Assembly: GCF_029168335.1 (NCBI RefSeq)
Contig: NZ_JARGYC010000052.1
Coordinates: 1-33,714 of the forward strand
DNA length: 33,714 bases
Source of the DNA: Psychromarinibacter sediminicola
GTDB lineage: Bacteria > Pseudomonadota > Alphaproteobacteria > Rhodobacterales > Rhodobacteraceae
Reading direction: 5' to 3'
A program made the translations under genes and the position numbers. The notes under the pieces are model-generated. The model did not search any database, was not told the DNA's origin, and saw nothing but the letters and a program-made list of their open reading frames with translations. Shown here in pieces: positions 4,055 through 19,948 of this stretch (its first letter is position 1; the number at the start of each line of letters is the position of its first letter).

Positions 4055-6042
4055 TGGTCTCCGAAGGCGACATCCTCTGGGAGTGCCCCGAAGACCGGCT
4101 GGCAGAGACGAACATCGTCAAATACTTAGGCTGGCTGGCCGAGCGCGGCCGGCGCTTCGACGGCTACTGGGATCTCTGGCAATGGTCCGTGGATGACCCG
4201 TCCGCGTTCTGGCAGTCCCTCTGGGACTATTTCGAGATCCTCCACGACGGCGAGATCGACGCCGTCATGACCGCCGACCCGATGCCCCGCACCCGCTGGT
4301 TCACCGGCACCCGCCTGAACTACGCCGAGCATGTCCTGCGCCACGAGACCACCGGCGACCCGTCGCGCGCCATGCTGCATCATTCCAGCGAATGCCGCAC
4401 CGCAGCCACCATGAGCTGGGCCGAGGTCGGCAGCGCCGTCCGCCGCCTCGCCACATCGCTTCGCGACCGCGGCATCGGCCCCGGCGACCGCGTCGTCGCC
4501 TACATGCCGAACATCCCCGAGACGGTGATCGCGATGCTCGCCACCACCGCCATCGGCGCCACCTGGTCCTCGGCCGCGCCCGAATTCGGCGCCCAGACCG
4601 TCATCGACCGCTTCGCCCAGATCGAACCGAAGCTCGTCTTCGCCGTCGACGGCTACCGCTACGGCGGCAAGGACTATGACCGCTCGGCCGACCTGGCCAC
4701 GATCCTCGCCGCGCTGCCCGGCGTGGAAACCCTGGTTACCGTTCCGTATCTTAACGAGTCGTCAACCGAATGTTTCGCGCGCGAAACAATTGCTTGGGAG
4801 GCGCTGTTAAACCGCCCCGAGATCGCGCCCGACGCCTTCGCCTATGAGCGTGTCGCCTCCGACCACCCGCTCTGGATCCTGTTCTCCTCGGGCACCACCG
4901 GCCTGCCGAAACCCATCACCCACGGCCACCACGGCATCGTGCTCGAGCACTACAAATCCGCCGCCTTCCACTTCGAGCTGCAGCGAAACGGCGCGCTGTT
5001 CTTCTACTCAACCACCGGCTGGATGGTCTGGAACACGCTGATGTGGGGCCCGCTGATGGACGGCCGCGCAGTGCTTTACGACGGCCACCCGGCGCATCCC
5101 GACGCCACGCTTCTCTGGCGGATCGCGGCGGACACGCGGGCGACCGTGATGGGCGTCAGCCCGACCTATATCCAGATGGTCCGCCAGCAGGGCATCGTGC
5201 CGGGCCGCGACGTCGACCTCTCGGCGCTGCAATCGGTGATGCTGGTGGGCTCCCCCTCGACGCCGGAGACCTTCGCCTGGGCCTACGAGGCGATCGGCCC
5301 GGACATCTGGGCCAGCTCGCAATCCGGCGGCACCGAGTTCTGCTCGGGCATCCTGGCGGGCTCGCCCCTCCTGCCCACCCGCGCCGGCGAAATCCAGGCC
5401 CCCGGCCTCGGCACCGCCGCCCGCGCCTATTCCGAAGAGGGCACGCCCGTGACCGACGAGGTGGGCGAGCTGGTGCTGGAAAAGCCGATGCCGTCGATGC
5501 CGCTCTTCCTCTGGGGCGACGACAATTTCGCGCGCTACACAGACAGCTATTTCGACACCTACCCCGGCATCTGGCGCCACGGCGACCGGGTGAGGTTCAA
5601 CGCCCATGGCGGCGGCTTCGTGCTCGGCCGCTCCGACGCCACGCTGAACCGCTTCGGGGTGCGCATCGGCTCGGCCGAAATCTACCGCACCATCGAGACC
5701 TTCCCCGAGATCGCCGACAGCCTGATCGTCTGCGTCGAGGAAGACAGCGGCGGCTATTACATGCCGCTGTTCGTGAAGATGGCTGAAGCTCGCGCGCTAA
5801 CCGACGATCTGAAAACCGAAATCGCCCGCCGCCTGCGCGCCGACCGCAGCCCCCGGCATGTCCCCGACGAGATCGTCGAGGCCCCCGACATCCCCGCCAC
5901 GCTGACCGGCAAGAAGATGGAGGTGCCGGTGCGCAAGCTGCTGCTCGGCGCCGCGCCGGAGACCGTCGCCAGCCGCGACGCGACGAAAAACCCCGAAGCG
6001 CTCGACTGGTTCGCCGCCTTCGCCGCGAAACGCGCGTCATGA
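4054..6042 (+). CDS. Acetoacetate-CoA ligase (acetoacetyl-CoA synthetase)
   Basis: A 662-residue member of the adenylate-forming ligases with the length and N-terminus of acetoacetyl-CoA synthetases (acetoacetate + ATP + CoA to acetoacetyl-CoA + AMP + PPi, cytoplasm). Visible motifs are the P-loop FSSGTTGLPKPITHGHHG (residues about 276-293), the SGGTEFCSGI motif, the hinge region WRHGDRVRFNAHGGG (about 508-522), FGVRIGSAEIYR, and the A10 catalytic lysine in LTGKKMEVPVRKL (about 616-628). It sits between a HAD phosphatase and an SDR with overlapping stops and starts. Around 4733-4806 codon use becomes AT-rich and contains an 18-bp perfect palindrome, listed separately. A propionyl/acetyl-CoA synthetase is less likely given the WECPEDR-type start and overall length. 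Confidence 0.87.
   Translation: MVSEGDILWECPEDRLAETNIVKYLGWLAERGRRFDGYWDLWQWSVDDPSAFWQSLWDYFEILHDGEIDAVMTADPMPRTRWFTGTRLNYAEHVLRHETTGDPSRAMLHHSSECRTAATMSWAEVGSAVRRLATSLRDRGIGPGDRVVAYMPNIPETVIAMLATTAIGATWSSAAPEFGAQTVIDRFAQIEPKLVFAVDGYRYGGKDYDRSADLATILAALPGVETLVTVPYLNESSTECFARETIAWEALLNRPEIAPDAFAYERVASDHPLWILFSSGTTGLPKPITHGHHGIVLEHYKSAAFHFELQRNGALFFYSTTGWMVWNTLMWGPLMDGRAVLYDGHPAHPDATLLWRIAADTRATVMGVSPTYIQMVRQQGIVPGRDVDLSALQSVMLVGSPSTPETFAWAYEAIGPDIWASSQSGGTEFCSGILAGSPLLPTRAGEIQAPGLGTAARAYSEEGTPVTDEVGELVLEKPMPSMPLFLWGDDNFARYTDSYFDTYPGIWRHGDRVRFNAHGGGFVLGRSDATLNRFGVRIGSAEIYRTIETFPEIADSLIVCVEEDSGGYYMPLFVKMAEARALTDDLKTEIARRLRADRSPRHVPDEIVEAPDIPATLTGKKMEVPVRKLLLGAAPETVASRDATKNPEALDWFAAFAAKRAS
4771..4788. 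other. 18-bp perfect palindrome, parS-like, inside a coding region
   Basis: The sequence TGTTTCGCGCGCGAAACA is a perfect inverted repeat. Its outer hexamers TGTTTC and GAAACA are those of the bacterial ParB site parS (consensus TGTTTCACGTGAAACA), but the centre is GCGCGC, two bases longer. It lies within the acetoacetate-CoA ligase gene in a 70-bp patch with unusually AT-rich codons for this genome. It could be a divergent chromosome- or chromid-partition site, a site for another dimeric DNA-binding protein, or chance. Confidence 0.35.
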
Positions 6043-6812
6043 GCCTCGATGCGCTGTTCGGCGTGGCCGGCAAGGCCGCCTTCGTCACCGGCGCCGCCGC
6101 CGGGCTGGGCCGCGCCATGGCCGAGGCGCTGGCCGAGAACGGCGCCATGGTCGCCTGTTTCGACCAGGACGTCGACGGGCTCGCCGAGACCGCCCAGCGG
6201 CTGAAGCAGACGGGCGCCGAGGTCCTGACCTATCCCGGCGACGTCACCCACCGCGCCGCGGTCGACAGCGCCATGGCGGGGGCGGCGAAAGGGTTCGGCC
6301 GGCTCGACATCGCGGTCGCGAATGCCGGCATCTCCGACCCGTCCGACGCCCTTCTGCACGAGACGGAGGAGGACGACTGGCAGCGCGTCGTCGACGTGAA
6401 CCTGCACGACACCTACAACACCTGCCGCGCCGCGCTGCGGCTGATGCTGCCGCAGGGCGCGGGCAAGATCGTGACGGTCGTCTCGATGTGGGGCCTCGCC
6501 GGCGCCGCCGGGCTGCAGCCGCGGCCCGCCTATGCCGCCAGCAAGGGCGCGGTGGCGAACCTCACGCGCGAGCTGGGCCTCGAATACGCTCGCCACGGCA
6601 TCCAGGTGAACGCGCTCTGCCCCGGCTTCTTCCGCACCGAAACGCGGCCCCGCGACGCCGCGCAGGCCGAGCGGTTCGAGGCCTACACGCCGATGGGCCG
6701 CATCGCCGAGGCCGACGAGATCAAGGGCTCGCTGCTTTACCTCTGCTCGCCCGCGTCGGATTTCGTGACCGGCACGACGCTCGTCGTCGACGGCGGCATC
6801 CTGGCGCGGTAG
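6039..6812 (+). CDS. Short-chain dehydrogenase/reductase (classical SDR)
   Basis: A 257-residue cytoplasmic NAD(P)-dependent oxidoreductase. The Rossmann glycine motif TGAAAGLGRA starts near residue 17. Asp in FDQDVDGL at the end of the second strand suggests NAD(H) preference. The NAG structural motif (VANAG), a catalytic Ser in VVSMWG and the catalytic YAASKG (Tyr/Lys, residues about 166-170) follow, and the protein ends with the usual VDGG. It overlaps the ligase stop by four bases and is the last gene of the operon, ending five bases before the palindrome array. A 3-hydroxybutyrate-type or related hydroxyacyl dehydrogenation would fit the acetoacetate context, but the substrate is inference. 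Confidence 0.85.
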   Translation: MSLDALFGVAGKAAFVTGAAAGLGRAMAEALAENGAMVACFDQDVDGLAETAQRLKQTGAEVLTYPGDVTHRAAVDSAMAGAAKGFGRLDIAVANAGISDPSDALLHETEEDDWQRVVDVNLHDTYNTCRAALRLMLPQGAGKIVTVVSMWGLAGAAGLQPRPAYAASKGAVANLTRELGLEYARHGIQVNALCPGFFRTETRPRDAAQAERFEAYTPMGRIAEADEIKGSLLYLCSPASDFVTGTTLVVDGGILAR

Positions 6813-6815
6813 GTT

Positions 6816-6893
6816 TCAAAATCTTCCAGAAGATTTTGACTTTGCAGGATTTTCTAGAAAATCCTGACGGGCACGATCTTCTAGAAGATCGTG
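6816..6893. repeat. Triple-palindrome array 1
   Basis: Three consecutive 22-bp inverted repeats follow the SDR stop codon. Unit 1 (6817-6838; half CAAAATCTTCC) has a two-base imperfection at its centre (TTCCAGAA). Unit 2 (6845-6866; half CAGGATTTTCT) and unit 3 (6872-6893; half CACGATCTTCT) are perfect with centre TTCTAGAA. Unit starts are 28 and 27 bp apart, with spacers of 6 and 5 bp. The array lies between the convergent ends of the SDR gene and a decayed ferredoxin-like ORF. As RNA each unit would fold into a hairpin, so bidirectional termination or 3'-end protection is plausible; no U-tract is evident. Confidence 0.85.
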
Positions 6894-6894
6894 G

Positions 6895-7217
6895 CCCCGC
6901 CCCGTCGCGACCCGGAACACCGCGCCCGCGAGCTGCGGGGTCACGGTGATCTGGCAGGGCAGCCGCGACGCCTCGGTCGGCTCGTGCGCCATGAACTCGA
7001 TCGTGTCCGCCTCGTCCGGCGCCGGCGGCTCCAGCGCGCCGTCGGCCGCGACGCCGTCCGCAAGAGCGCAACCCAGCCCGCCGACCGCGTCGGTGACGAA
7101 CACGCGGGCGCGGTCCAGTCCCGGACCGCTCATCCCGGATACCTCTCCCATCTGCAGTTCGGCCCAGGCGGCAGCCGTGCTCCCCTGCGCCAGCGCACGG
7201 CCCGCATCGGTCGTCAT
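6895..7217 (-). pseudogene. Decayed 2Fe-2S ferredoxin-like ORF
   Basis: The minus-strand frame from ATG 7217 (open to 6816 through the palindrome array) ends its protein-like part with LEPPAPDEADTIEF, EPTEASRLPCQITVTPQL and AVFRV. This matches the C-terminal half of adrenodoxin/bacterial-type 2Fe-2S ferredoxins. The segment that should carry the clustered cysteines (CxxxxxCxxC) reads GGLGCALADGVAA, with only one cysteine. With the final SRLPCQI cysteine, two of four ligands remain, so the protein could not bind a normal cluster. The N-terminus is not ferredoxin-like, and the ORF continues into the palindromes as if its own stop was lost. I read it as a gene remnant. Confidence 0.5.
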
Positions 7218-14615: not shown

Positions 14616-14692
14616 CAGGATTTTCTAGAAAATCCTGATCTTACGAGATTTTCTAGAAAATCTCGCGCTGCAGAACCTTCTAGAAGGTTCTG
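14616..14692. repeat. Triple-palindrome array 2
   Basis: Three perfect 22-bp palindromes: 14616-14637 (half CAGGATTTTCT, identical to unit 2 of array 1), 14644-14665 (half CGAGATTTTCT) and 14671-14692 (half CAGAACCTTCT), all with centre TTCTAGAA. Starts are 28 and 27 bp apart and spacers 6 and 5 bp, exactly as in array 1. The array begins 17 bp past the stop of the minus-strand ABC exporter gene and about 150 bp before the MFS start, so it separates two co-oriented genes. Confidence 0.88.
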
Positions 14693-14709: not shown

Positions 14710-16545
14710 CTACTCCGCCGCCACCGCCTCGTCGTCCTGCTCGGCCGCCTGCCGCTGCCACAGCGCGGCATAGCGCCCGTTCCGCGCCAGCAGGTCGGCG
14801 TGGCTCCCCTCCTCCACCACCTCGCCGGACTCCAGCACCACGATCCGGTCGGCATCGGCGATGGTCGACAGCCGGTGCGCGATGGTCAGCACCGTGCGCC
14901 CCTCGCCCATCGCCTTCAGCTCGGACTGGATGTCGCGCTCGGTCTCGGTGTCGAGCGCGCTGGTCGCCTCGTCCAGCAGCAGGATCGGCGGGTTCTTCAG
15001 AAGCGTCCGGGCGATGCCCACGCGCTGCTTCTCGCCGCCCGACAGCTTCAGGCCGCGCTCGCCCACCTGGGTGTCGTAGCCCTCGGGCAGCGACACGATG
15101 AAGTCGTGGATCTTGGCCGCGCGCGCCGCCGCCTCGATCTCCTCGCGCGTGGCGTCGGGGCGGCCGTAGGCGATGTTGTAGAGGATCGAGTCGTTGAACA
15201 GGACGGTGTCCTGCGGCACCACGCCGATCTGCGCGTGCAGGCTCTCCTGCGTGACCTCGCGCAGGTCCTGCCCGTCGATCCGGAGCGCGCCGTCCGACAC
15301 GTCGTAGAACCGAAACAGCAGCCGCCCGATGGTGGACTTGCCCGAGCCCGACGGCCCGACGATCGCCACCGTCTCGCCGGCGGCGACGGAGATCGACACG
15401 CCCTTCAGCACCGGCCGCTCGGGGTCGTAGCCGAAGACCACCTGGTCGAGTTCCACCGCGCCGCCCTCGATGCGGATGTCGTGGGCGTCCTCGGCATCCT
15501 TCACCTCGGCCGGCTGTTCCAGCAGGTCGAACATCTCGGCCATGTCGACGAGCGCCTGGCGGATCTCGCGATAGACGGTGCCGAGGAAGTTCAGCGGCAT
15601 GGTGATCTGGATCATGTAGGCGTTGACCATCACGAAATCGCCCACCGTCAGGCTGCCGTTCTGCACGCCGACGGCCGCCATCACCATGACGATGACGAGG
15701 CCCGCGGTGATCAAGAGCGACTGCCCGAAGTTCAGGAAGGCCAGCGAATAGGCCGTGCGGATCGCGGCGCTTTCATAGCCTTCCATGGCGCTGTCGTAGC
15801 GCTCCGCCTCGCGCCGCTCGGCGCCGAAATACTTCACCGTCTCGAAGTTCAGCAGGCTGTCGATGGCCTTCTGGTTGGCGTCGGTGTCCTGCTCGTTCAT
15901 CTGGCGGCGGATCTTCACGCGCCATTCGGTGACCTTGAAGGTGAACCAGATATAGAGCCCGATGGTCACCACCACGACCGCCAGGTACCAGAGGTCGAAG
16001 ACCACCGCGAGCACCACGCCGATCATCAGCAATTCCAGCAGCAGCGGCCCGATGGAGAACAGCAGAAAGCGCAGCAGGAACTCCACGCCCTTCACGCCGC
16101 GCTCGATGATGCGGCTGAGCCCGCCGGTCTTGCGGGTGATGTGATAGCGCAGCGACAGCGCGTGCATGTGCCGGAACGTCTCCAGCGCCAGCTGGCGCAG
16201 CGCCCGCTGGCCGACCCGCGCGAAGATAACGTCGCGAAGCTGCTGGAAGCCCACATTCATCAGCCGCGCCATGCCGTAGCCGATGGTCAGGCCGACCGCG
16301 CCGATGGCCAGCATGAAGGCCGCGCTGTCGCCCTCGCCGGCGAGCGCGTCCACCGCCGCCTTGTAGAAGAACGGCGTGCCCACGGCGACGAGCTTGGCCA
16401 CGAACAGCGTCACCAGCGCCCAGACCACGCGCTTTTTCACCCAGGCCTTGTCCCTGGGCCAGAGATACGGGGCCACCTTGCGCACGACGCGCCAGCCGCT
16501 GCGGCGCGCGGCCTCGCTGTTCCAGTCGGTCATGACGCTGGGCAT
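14710..16545 (-). CDS. Atm1/ABCB7-type ABC exporter (permease-ATPase)
   Basis: A 611-residue half-transporter with an N-terminal six-helix domain and a C-terminal ATPase. The ATPase shows Walker [10 protein letters not shown] (about residue 396-404), Q-loop VPQDTVLF, signature LSGGEKQR (about 500), Walker [13 protein letters not shown] (about 520) and H-loop IAHRLS (about 555). The membrane half has the Atm1 hallmarks [29 protein letters not shown] and a final-helix-region [15 protein letters not shown]. The family exports glutathione-linked metal or sulfur species and is tied to Fe-S assembly or heavy-metal tolerance. It stands between the LysM gene and palindrome array 2 and appears to be transcribed alone. 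Confidence 0.93.
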
Positions 16546-16636
16546 GGGTGTCCTTTCGTCCGAGCCGCATACCTAGGCGCGGCCGGCGGGGATTGCCAGT
16601 GCATGGATGCACAGGGCGGACGCCGGTCTCCCCGCG

Positions 16637-16688
16637 CCGTCCCCCCATGCCGTCCCCCCATGCCGACCCTCCGTGCCGACCCTCCGTG
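16637..16688 (-). repeat. 13-bp tandem repeat directly after the LysM gene
   Basis: Four 13-bp units, two of CCGTCCCCCCATG and two of CCGACCCTCCGTG on the plus strand, end four bases from the stop (16693-16695) of the minus-strand LysM gene. No stop codon is repeated inside the units. Confidence 0.8.
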
Positions 16689-16692
16689 CCGC

Positions 16693-19600
16693 TCACTCGC
16701 CGTCGGGAATTTCGAACACCTGGCCGGGATAGATCCAGTGCGGGTCGCGAATGCGGTCGCGGTTCGCCTCGAACACGCGGACATAGAGGAAGCCGTCGCC
16801 ATAGCGCGCGTCGGCGATGCCCCAGAGCGTGTTGCCCGGCTGCACCGTCAGCAGCTCGGTCCGCGGCCCGTCGCCGCCCTTGGCACCGGGGTCGGAGGCG
16901 TCGCGCCCCGCCTCCAGCTCGGCCAGCAGCTCCGGCTCCTCGCGCTTGAACGGCGTCTCCACGCGGGAGGTCACGGTGCCGTCGGGGCCGAGCTCGTCGA
17001 CGCGCAGGGTGTAGACGCCGGTGTCGACATCGGGCAGCGGGGTGCGCCACTGGCCGTCGACGCCGATCTCGGTGGTCTTGATCGGGTTGTTGTCCAGGTA
17101 GACGCGGACGAAGCCGCCCTCCTTGCCGCGCCCGCCGAGCGCGACCTCGCCCTCGGGGTCGTAGCTGATCGTGTCGATGATGACCGACTGCACCGGGGCG
17201 GGGCGGTTGCCGCCCGACTGCAGCACGCGAATGCCGGTCTCGTCGGCGAGCAGCACGGTCGGCGCCTCGGGCTTCGGCGCGGCGCCCGGGGTGCTTTCGC
17301 CGCCGGGCAGGTCGGCCGGGCCGTCCGCCTCGGGCGCGCTCATCCCGGGCGTCTCAGACGGGGCGGCCGGGCCGGCGCCGGGAAGCTCCGGCGCCGCGGC
17401 GACCGGGACCTCGGGCGCGTCGGTGTCGGGCGCGGCGGTGTCGGGGGCGGCGGGCGCCGTGGTCTCCGCCCCGGCGCCGCCGAGTGTGGGTGCGTCGGGC
17501 GATGTCCCCTCCGGCCCCGTTGCACCGGCCTCCGCGACGGCGACCGGCGCGTCGGTTTCCGGCACGACCGAGCTGGGGGCGGAGAGGTCCGGCGCCGCGA
17601 TCTCGGGCGCGGGCGTCGCCCCGTCCTCCGATGCGGTGTCGGTGGCCGAGGGCGCGGCGCCCTCCGTCGTGGCGCCGGGCGGGTCGGTCTCGCCGATCTC
17701 CGCTGTCACCGGCGCGTCGGTCTCCGGCGCATCGGTCACCGGCACGTCGGTCACCGGGGCGTCGGTCACCGGCACGTCGGTCACCGGGGCGTCGGTCTCC
17801 GGTGCGTCGGTCTCCGGCACGGTCGTCTCCGGTTCGGTCGTCTCCGGGCCGGTGCCCGCGATCTCCGGTCCGGTCCCCTCCGTCGCCGCGCCCGGCCCCG
17901 ATGGCGCGAGGTCGTCCGCCTCGGCGATGTCCTCGGACGCGGGGGCGGCGGCGGAGTCGTCGACGGCCGCATCCGCGCCCGCGAGCCGCTCCGGTGACGA
18001 CGGAGAGGCCTCCTCCGCCGCGTCGGGCGTCGCGGGGGCGTCCGCTGGATCGGTCCCAGGCTCCGACGGCGCGGCCTCGTCCGCCCCGGCCAGCTCGGTC
18101 TCCGCCGGGTCGGTCCCGGCAGGGGGTGTCCCGGAGGCCGTCGGCCCGGTGACCTCGGCCGTGTCCACGGCGGGCGCGGCGTCGCCGGCGGGAGCGCCGT
18201 CCGCCGCAGCCACATCCGCCGCGTCCGGACCCTCTTCGATGGCCGGATCGGCTTCGGTCGCCGCCGTGACAGTCGTGTCGGCGGGGCCCTCCGGCGCGTC
18301 CGGCTGGGGCGGCTCAGTTCCCTCCGCGATGCGGGGCGTCTCGGAGACAGCCGGCCCGTCGGTGACCCCGTCCGGTGCAGGCACGTCATCGGCCGCAGCC
18401 ACGGCAGGGCCGTCGGGCGCAGGTGCGTCGTCGGCGCGCGCGACCTCCGGGGCGTCGCCGGAGGGGGCGTCGGCGCTCGGCGCCTCGGCCGTCGTTGCGG
18501 GGCTGTCGTCAGGGGCGCTGTCCGGGGCGGCACCGCCGGTCCCGGACGTGGGGGCGGCAGGGGCCTCCCCTTCGGGCCGTCGCTCCGGGACCAGCCCGGC
18601 GATGTCGAGCGGCGGCGCGTCGCCGGTGTCGCGGTCGCCCTCGGCGACCTCTTCCGGAGCGCTGTCCTCCGTCGATCCGTCCCCGACGGTCCCGGCTGGA
18701 GCCTCCGGCCCGGCGTCGCCGCCCTCGGTCCCGGCCGTCTCGACGCCCCCCGCGCCCGGCACGGCGCCGTTCTCGGAGGTGCTCAGCCGGGTCTCGCCCG
18801 GCGGCGCGGGCGCCGTTTCGACGCCGGCCAGGTCGCCCGGAGGCGCGTCCGCCTCCGGGGCCGCGGCGATGTCGGGCGTGGCGGTGGCGTCCGGCGGCGT
18901 GTCGGCGGGCGGTGCCGGCGGCGCCGCGCTCTCCGGTATGGGGCCATCGGGCGGCGGCAGGGTCTGGGCGAGATCCGGCGCGGCGGGCGTCTCGGGCGGC
19001 GCGTCCTCGGCGGCCAGGTCGGTCTCGCCCGGCTCGGGCACATCCGCCGCGGTCACCGGCGGCACGTCCGCCGCGTCGGGCACCGGCGCGGTGCCGGTGT
19101 TCACCGGCGGTGCCGCCTCGCCTGTCGCCCCGGCCCCGGAGAGCGCCGGCGGCGCGGCATCGGCATCCGGCGCCGCCGTCACGCCGGGCACCCGCCCGAC
19201 CGGCGCGTCCGGATCGGGCGCCGCGCCCACGCCCTCGGCGCTGGCCACGACATCCGGTTCCGGCGCGGCGGGCTGCAGGATGACCGTGGCGGCGGATCTC
19301 ACGGGGTCTTCGCCGTCCTTCAGCATCGTCAGGCTCATGACGCGGGGCACATCGGCCGGGGGGACCGAGAACATCGACACGAAGCCGCCGTCGCCGCCGG
19401 CCTGCGTCACGGCGACCTCTTCGCCGTCGAGAAGCACCTTGACCTCGGACCGCGGCGCCGCCTTGCCGGCGATCAGCGCGTTGCCGTCGGCATCGACGCG
19501 CACGACGTCGAAGCTGGGCGGCGTCGGCTTGGGCGGCGGCGCGGCCGCGTCCGGGGTGTCGGGCGCCGCGGCGCTCTCCGGGTCGGGGGCGGGGTCGGCC

Positions 19601-19854
19601 TCGGTCCCGGAAGGCGCTTCGGCGGTGCCTTCGGGCGCAGTCTCCTCGGGCGCGGTCTCCTCGGGCGCCGTCTCCTCGGGGGCGGGGGCGCTGTCGGGCG
19701 GCGGTGTCGTGGCGATCTCGACGGGGGCGTCGGGGTTCGGCGACGGGGTCAGGACCTGCCACGCGCCAAAGCCCGCGGCCCCCAGGGCGACCGCCACGGC
19801 CACGGCCCCGCTGGCAGGCCCTCCGCCAAAGACGGACCCGATTTTCGACAGCAT
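16693..19854 (-). CDS. Very long LysM-domain envelope protein with low-complexity spacer
   Basis: The product is about 1053 residues. A single N-terminal membrane segment ([20 protein letters not shown], about 13-32) is followed by EETAP repeats and a small beta-rich domain (about 110-195; [20 protein letters not shown]). About 650 residues of Ala/Pro/Asp/Glu/Thr-rich, surely disordered sequence follow, then a second beta domain (about 865-970) and a C-terminal LysM (about 1001-1053; [20 protein letters not shown], ending [12 protein letters not shown]). LysM binds peptidoglycan, so the protein probably tethers the inner membrane to the wall. ATG 19854 is preferred because GGGGGA lies 6 bases upstream; upstream in-frame starts exist to 19908. 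Length is far beyond what two small domains and LysM need. Confidence 0.85.
17711..17845 (-). repeat. 15-bp coding repeats in the LysM spacer
   Basis: Nine 15-bp units of the type GG(C/G)(G/A)CGTCGGTCACC (plus strand) encode pentapeptides of the form (V/E)TD(A/V)P at residues about 670-714. Several copies are identical, indicating recent expansion or active slippage. Confidence 0.85.
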
Positions 19855-19948
19855 CGCGTTCCCCCATGCGCCGGCCCCGTGCCGACGGTTGAGCGACATT
19901 AGCAACAAGGCTATTGGTGGTCAAAACCCATTGCCGTGAGGGCTAGAT

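Follow-up and report, generated by a model that had tools for sequence, protein, structure and literature searches.

The window analysed here, a stretch of 33,714 nucleotides, is contig 226 of the draft genome of Psychromarinibacter sediminicola (G000; 5.03 Mb, 278 contigs), and it contains two arrays of short palindromes. In array 2, three perfect palindromes of 22 bp, spaced at 28 and 27 bp, fill positions 14616–14692 exactly, as an earlier note on this DNA had claimed. Unit a (CAGGATTTTCTAGAAAATCCTG, 14616–14637), unit b (CGAGATTTTCTAGAAAATCTCG, 14644–14665) and unit c (CAGAACCTTCTAGAAGGTTCTG, 14671–14692) each form 11 of 11 pairs and are separated by a first spacer of 6 bp (atctta, 14638–14643) and a second of 5 bp (cgctg, 14666–14670). 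Array 1 occupies 6817–6893. Its middle unit (6845–6866) has the same sequence as unit a of array 2, which bears out the claim of one unit common to both arrays, and its last unit (CACGATCTTCTAGAAGATCGTG, 6872–6893) has the commonest stem among the catalogued units, one half being found in 27 of them. The first unit (6817–6838; 10 of 11 pairs) is symmetric except for the central two bases. The further claim that array 2 copies the architecture of array 1 thus holds for the 28/27 spacing but not for the centre, which in the first unit of array 1 is TTCCAGAA rather than TTCTAGAA. No strand is assigned to units or spacers.

The genes next to the arrays are host genes outside the element. Array 1 begins 4 bp past the stop of a short-chain dehydrogenase gene on the + strand (6039–6812; PF13561), and the end of array 2 lies 17 bp from the stop of an ABC transporter gene on the − strand (14710–16545, ending at 14710; PF00664 and PF00005); both arrays do lie within 17 bp of a stop codon, as had been stated. 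The sequence TTCTAGAA occurs five times in the window, always inside the arrays, whereas 100 shuffles contained it 0.02 times on average. CTAG is scarce in the window (10 occurrences compared with ∼93 expected from base composition), and five of the ten are array centres. A 133-aa frame on the − strand (6816–7217) runs with its C-terminal end into array 1; it has no Pfam match and a weak NCBIfam hint of a short-chain dehydrogenase model (E 0.046), and is perhaps a decayed gene.

The two arrays belong to a family that is dispersed through the genome. The exact 14-base core WTTTTCTAGAAAAW is present at 23 places in G000, and its reversed control at none. A covariance model (R1) built from 15 arrays gave 80 two-strand matches at E 0.001, corresponding to 41 places by hand count, with 150 of 1416 candidates scored; two of these places, on C7 and at the end of C239, are apparently the halves of a single array that an insertion sequence (IS) has interrupted. 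A stricter unit scan of the same genome, in which a unit had to show 7 of 11 pairs and 4 of 6 core bases and which therefore misses strongly decayed units, found 36 arrays of two or more good units; 30 are triplets and 6 are pairs. Three units (one spurious, two cut by the IS) were removed by hand to give a set of 107. By spacing, 17 triplets are 27/28 (one of them, L110, with a degenerate fourth unit), 9 are 27/27, 2 are 28/28, and one each is 27/29 and 28/29. Unit-to-unit spacings are 27 (44 cases), 28 (24), 29 (2) and 42 (1, owed to the spurious unit). Random unit counts and spacing, which according to the earlier note would have pointed to unrelated palindromes, are therefore not what is seen in G000, where the spacings are nearly all 27 or 28. 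The spacers are likewise constant in length while their sequence varies.

Three stems are the most frequent in G000, CACGATC (27 units), CAAAATC (21) and CAGGATT (19), and two orders of the three occur five times each among the arrays. When arrays are grouped by equal stems, a comparison that reveals divergence of spacers and flanks only and cannot show conservation of stems, the spacers are 54%–56% identical and the flanks 30%–45%. The array L046 and the IS-split array (L235 and L243, taken as the two sides of one insertion) agree in their stems and at 10 of 11 spacer positions but lie in unrelated flanks. This likeness is the best sign that a bare triplet may be copied. The IS itself has the ends AGCTTCGTGCG and AGCCTCGTGCG, with CTAG where it joins the flanking DNA, and is found in the centres of arrays (L235, L236, L243 and L244); 4 of the 13 junctions found are of this kind (contigs C4, C7, C236 and C239) and were taken as two insertions.

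The earlier note had suggested that covariation between half-sites be examined, and the stems indeed covary almost perfectly. When the 15 arrays are aligned, pairing is seen in 99.3% of 405 cells, and double changes number 70 compared with 20.0 in shuffles. A wider alignment of 54 matches from several genomes, which includes both strands of arrays and was fitted to the model, has 98.6% of its 1449 cells paired and 337 double changes compared with 84.7. Of five measures of covariation, one (further pair types) did not exceed the shuffles, 261 of 500 reaching the observed value in the 15-array set and 47 of 500 in the 54-match set. In the G000 unit scan, all but 10 of the 1070 stem pairs are intact. 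Template switching at palindromes can correct one arm from the other, and covariation could in principle be a by-product of this mutational process, one arm being fixed from the other with no selection needed. The near-perfect stems, the asymmetry of the central pair, which cannot be corrected in this way, in 43 of 107 units, and the lack of enrichment of G-T intermediates are all consistent with such a process. It leaves unexplained the constant unit length, the spacing, the tip, the rule of distinct stems described below and the placement, and stems have decayed in some copies from G001 and G003 (L059 and L061); as an account of the arrays it is highly improbable.

The 22-bp units have a conserved tip, TTC-YR-GAA, with spacers of 5–6 bp between units, and the centre is YR in 106 of the 107 G000 units, a figure to be read with the fact that the scan itself demanded most of the core. 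A conserved TTCYRGAA core, a site of constant length and near-constant spacing would also be expected if the units were three sites, 27/28 bp apart, bound in register by a dimeric protein such as a regulator or a chromosome-organising protein. Independent half-sites, however, need not mirror each other, yet the variable positions of the arms change on both sides together, and a protein bound in register would not alone explain covariation. In addition, two arrays of the uncultured Rhodobacteraceae bacterium CANNFE (G289), L226 and L231, retain the stems of their middle units although the tips TTCGTCGAA and TTCGACGAA, read by eye, replace TTCYRGAA, which indicates that the tip is not strictly fixed. 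Together with a placement at gene ends that does not look regulatory (0 of 35 arrays in divergent gaps), these observations make protein sites an improbable explanation.

Folded as DNA, array 2 gives three hairpins (z −7.1); in the RNA fold (z −6.0), unit b pairs with unit c. Among the mismatches in G000 units before hand removal, 4 are G-T and 5 A-C; both are equally rare, so that the data do not favor RNA over DNA, and the fact that G-T pairs are no commoner than A-C speaks against selection on RNA alone. A closing stem that would enclose the triplet was sought and rejected: the flanks of the arrays are no more complementary than permuted flanks, and their first 6–12 bases are significantly less so. 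A weak outward pattern in the flanks (YYGC.T, then C at position 12) is partly due to stop codons and may be part of the element or of its target. All seven arrays scanned in UBA10424 (G210) are pairs, and three units are thus not universal. In the genome G189, the arrays L078 and L084 have equal spacings of 30/30 and 31/31, and five of their six units end in A..T rather than C..G.

A further property of the arrays is that their stems differ. None of the 36 G000 arrays has two equal stems, compared with 11.9 expected under free shuffling, and pairs of stems one base apart in the same array are also rare (1 compared with 8.3 expected). The effect persists among the 26 unique stem sets (0 with a repeated stem compared with 6.0 expected, P 0.0004) and among unique triplet sets with position kept (0 compared with 4.2, P 0.0036). 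In G289, none of 17 arrays repeats a stem (3.2 expected, P 0.01; with position kept, 2.3 expected, P 0.04). Two processes would each produce this rule: selection for hairpins that fold separately, and slippage that removes equal units. One unit of L104 is chimeric, as if a deletion had joined two centres.

Genes were predicted with a simple caller trained on those of the window, and 39 G000 arrays were placed relative to them. Of these arrays, 21 lie between co-directional and 14 between convergent genes, none in a divergent gap and none inside a called gene, and 4 at contig ends; at L046 and L095, a called gene extends into the array. In 1.6 Mb of G003, 14% of the gaps between genes are divergent, and such gaps account for 30% of the intergenic bases; with this reference, their complete avoidance by 35 arrays has P 0.0045 by gap count. 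In G289 (n = 17), 10 arrays are co-directional, 5 convergent and 2 divergent, and 7 of the 10 are nearer the stop; in G210, one of seven arrays lies inside a called gene. For both of these genomes, the caller had been trained on another genome.

Such a position suits a cellular 3′-end element, that is, a bidirectional terminator or hairpins that protect mRNA, immobile and under selection at each gene. The arrays stand close behind stop codons, 18 of the 21 co-directional ones, by hand count, lying closer to the stop upstream than to the start that follows (P 0.0007), and one locus (L094) is filled in three species, G000, G001 and G003, with 27/27 spacing kept, spacers changed and stems compensated, apart from two one-sided mismatches, one in G003 and one in G001. 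A T-rich tract (5 T in 8 nt) follows none of the 72 outer ends of the G000 arrays, and a terminator scan flagged neither array of the window; an intrinsic (Rho-independent) terminator was rejected on these grounds. The array L110 trails a terminator-like hairpin with a T tract, read by eye, which G003 also has without the array. The distribution among relatives likewise argues against the cellular element. Two of the four congeners have no R1 match at E 1e-6, and seven of eight inspected sites in G003 are empty, which indicates that those genes do without the array. Taken together, selection of an immobile element gene by gene is unlikely.

Within the genus, three of five genomes contain R1 matches at E 1e-6, while G002 and G004 have none. 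In a family sample, 5 of 394 genomes match at E 1e-8, and in a class sample 1 of 385 at E 1e-7, which is G000 itself; weak copies may be missed in both samples because filters were stricter, with 12 candidates scored per genome shown. Holders include Maritimibacter sp. NAT7, which is the same as G001 by identical loci, UBA10424 and CANNFE, the last being a second copy-rich genome from a different genus. On the Salipiger abyssi plasmid pPABY2, two units 30 bp apart and ∼15 bp behind a stop codon (E 3e-5) are a likely relative, and a query of the G289 type found nothing among plasmids. With pPABY2 as the one likely relative, a plasmid origin is not supported. A phage origin was rejected: two exact patterns had no match in viral contigs, and the one match in phages was at chance level (E 0.6).

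The site of array 2 is empty in all four congeners (G001–G004). Flank comparison with G003, which covered 34% of that genome and gave a flank match for 20 of 39 array sites, showed clearly empty sites for array 2, L034, L039 and L045. At L040 and L101 no array is present in a poorer alignment, and at L110 the site is empty behind the common hairpin; the eighth site inspected, L094, is filled. Larger gaps in G003 near L051, L054, L095, L097 and L104 lie outside the eight inspected sites. In G001, the L098 site contains two of three units. The empty sites in G003 could reflect either gain or loss of arrays. Equal-scoring matches in contig 1 of G003 at 15938–19634 and 4655998–4659694, and the same for neighboring segments, suggest that this assembly overlaps at its ends.

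GTAG-tagged REPs are thought to be mobilised by RAYT transposases (IS200/IS605-like, Y1), and the earlier note had proposed a search for such an enzyme. The corresponding domain (Y1_Tnp, PF01797) is absent from the array-bearing genomes G000, G001, G003, G210 (83% complete) and G289. Among the nine genomes searched, two have a match, G189 and G244, with one each, and both carry some arrays. A RAYT-driven REP was thus rejected for the copy-rich G000 and G289. In G210, the frames between arrays at two loci, where they stand 690–770 bp apart, were read by eye and no transposase was seen among them, so that an autonomous parent element was not supported there. In the 36 G000 arrays, GTAG or GGAG stands directly at the stem foot on 4 of 204 unit sides, and CGTC, TGTC or CCTC on 1 of 204. 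Direct repeats of 2–11 bp at array ends, as a target-site duplication would leave, occur in one case (4 bp) compared with 0.2 expected. As neither REP tags nor a target-site duplication is a feature of the arrays, the classical MITE form is unsupported; of the REP- or MITE-like repeat proposed earlier, what stands is a dispersed REP-like element of three hairpins. A known RNA family was rejected, Rfam giving no match in the window at the gathering score; at four loci, with E up to 1, only weak matches to animal microRNAs touch the arrays (E 0.55 and 0.68).

Comparison with known repeats places the arrays near the REPs. Like GTAG REPs, they are many short extragenic palindromes close behind stop codons, often with unlike partners in the case of the REPs (PMC3733652), and their avoidance of divergent gaps is that of tagged REPs, for which the same paper describes a location past stop codons where neighboring genes converge or run in one direction. 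Unlike GTAG REPs, the units are fully symmetric with no head or tail, occur mostly as phased triplets, rarely have the foot tag and are found in copy-rich genomes without PF01797. CGTC REPs, as described in that paper, resemble the arrays in being mainly alphaproteobacterial, with stems of 8–9 bp, loops of 4–5 nt and unlike dimers in some families, and in having no associated or dedicated transposase; a CCA-like unpaired tail is a further feature of these REPs. The arrays differ from them in being triplets rather than head-to-head dimers and in the near absence of a CGTC-like foot. With MITEs and REPINs they would have in common that small non-autonomous units are dispersed whole, but neither a target-site duplication nor terminal inverted repeats around an internal body were observed. 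Untagged REP-like palindromes are named in the sections consulted for M. tuberculosis, D. radiodurans, Bordetellae, Brucellae and Cyanobacteria (PMC3733652), and the arrays, which are dispersed in many copies in G000, extragenic and without a conserved terminal motif, resemble this broad class by description only. The phased triplet with unlike stems does not appear in the descriptions of REP-like palindromes in those sections. A full-text literature search, in which subscription papers were mostly outside the scope, found no account recognisably about this family.

The arrays are probably an untagged REP-like dispersed non-coding repeat of ∼77 bp that forms three separate hairpins with different stems. 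Copy number, geometry, covariation, distinct stems, stop-codon placement, patchy distribution and empty sites in relatives are the observations on which this reading is built. The whole triplet would spread as one unit, and a putative enzyme supplied in trans would recognize the hairpins, most likely in single-stranded DNA. Arrays may persist at the 3′ ends of genes since little harm is done there. If transcribed, they would give hairpins that, by analogy with the REPs of E. coli, may shield the 3′ ends of mRNA or slow ribosomes near the stop; PMC12306157, citing earlier work, states that ribosomes are stalled by REPs that lie no more than 15 nt from a stop codon. The best reading is that arrays are tolerated or used at the 3′ ends of transcripts, the steps from placement to function being conjectural. 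Several observations count against it: no mobilising enzyme, no target-site duplication and no array caught moving were found; L094 (in G001 and G003) and L098 (in G001) are filled in relatives; and the pairing of units b and c in RNA, the two divergent arrays of G289 and the array inside a gene in G210 do not fit well. A more specific proposal, which we hold only tentatively and regard as doubtful, is a mobile element recognized in single-stranded DNA as three mutually non-pairing hairpins at fixed spacing and mobilised by a nuclease or recombinase of a kind other than RAYT, for which unlike stems would be needed so that the hairpins fold separately.

The most economical view is that the family belongs to a known kind, the untagged REP-like repeats, and is set apart by its triplet form, unlike stems and strict phasing. 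According to PMC3733652, there is no obvious reason why REPs that form dimers should prefer unlike partners. Arrays that are mostly strict triplets, strictly phased and never with a repeated stem offer a clean system to test why hairpins must differ. Since the family is abundant in a few genomes but absent from certain close relatives, comparison of strains could expose the enzyme. Elsewhere in the window, a long frame on the − strand (16693–19908) is full of short Ala/Pro/Asp/Thr repeats with a DNA period of 15 bp, and its C-terminal end presumably resembles a LysM domain.
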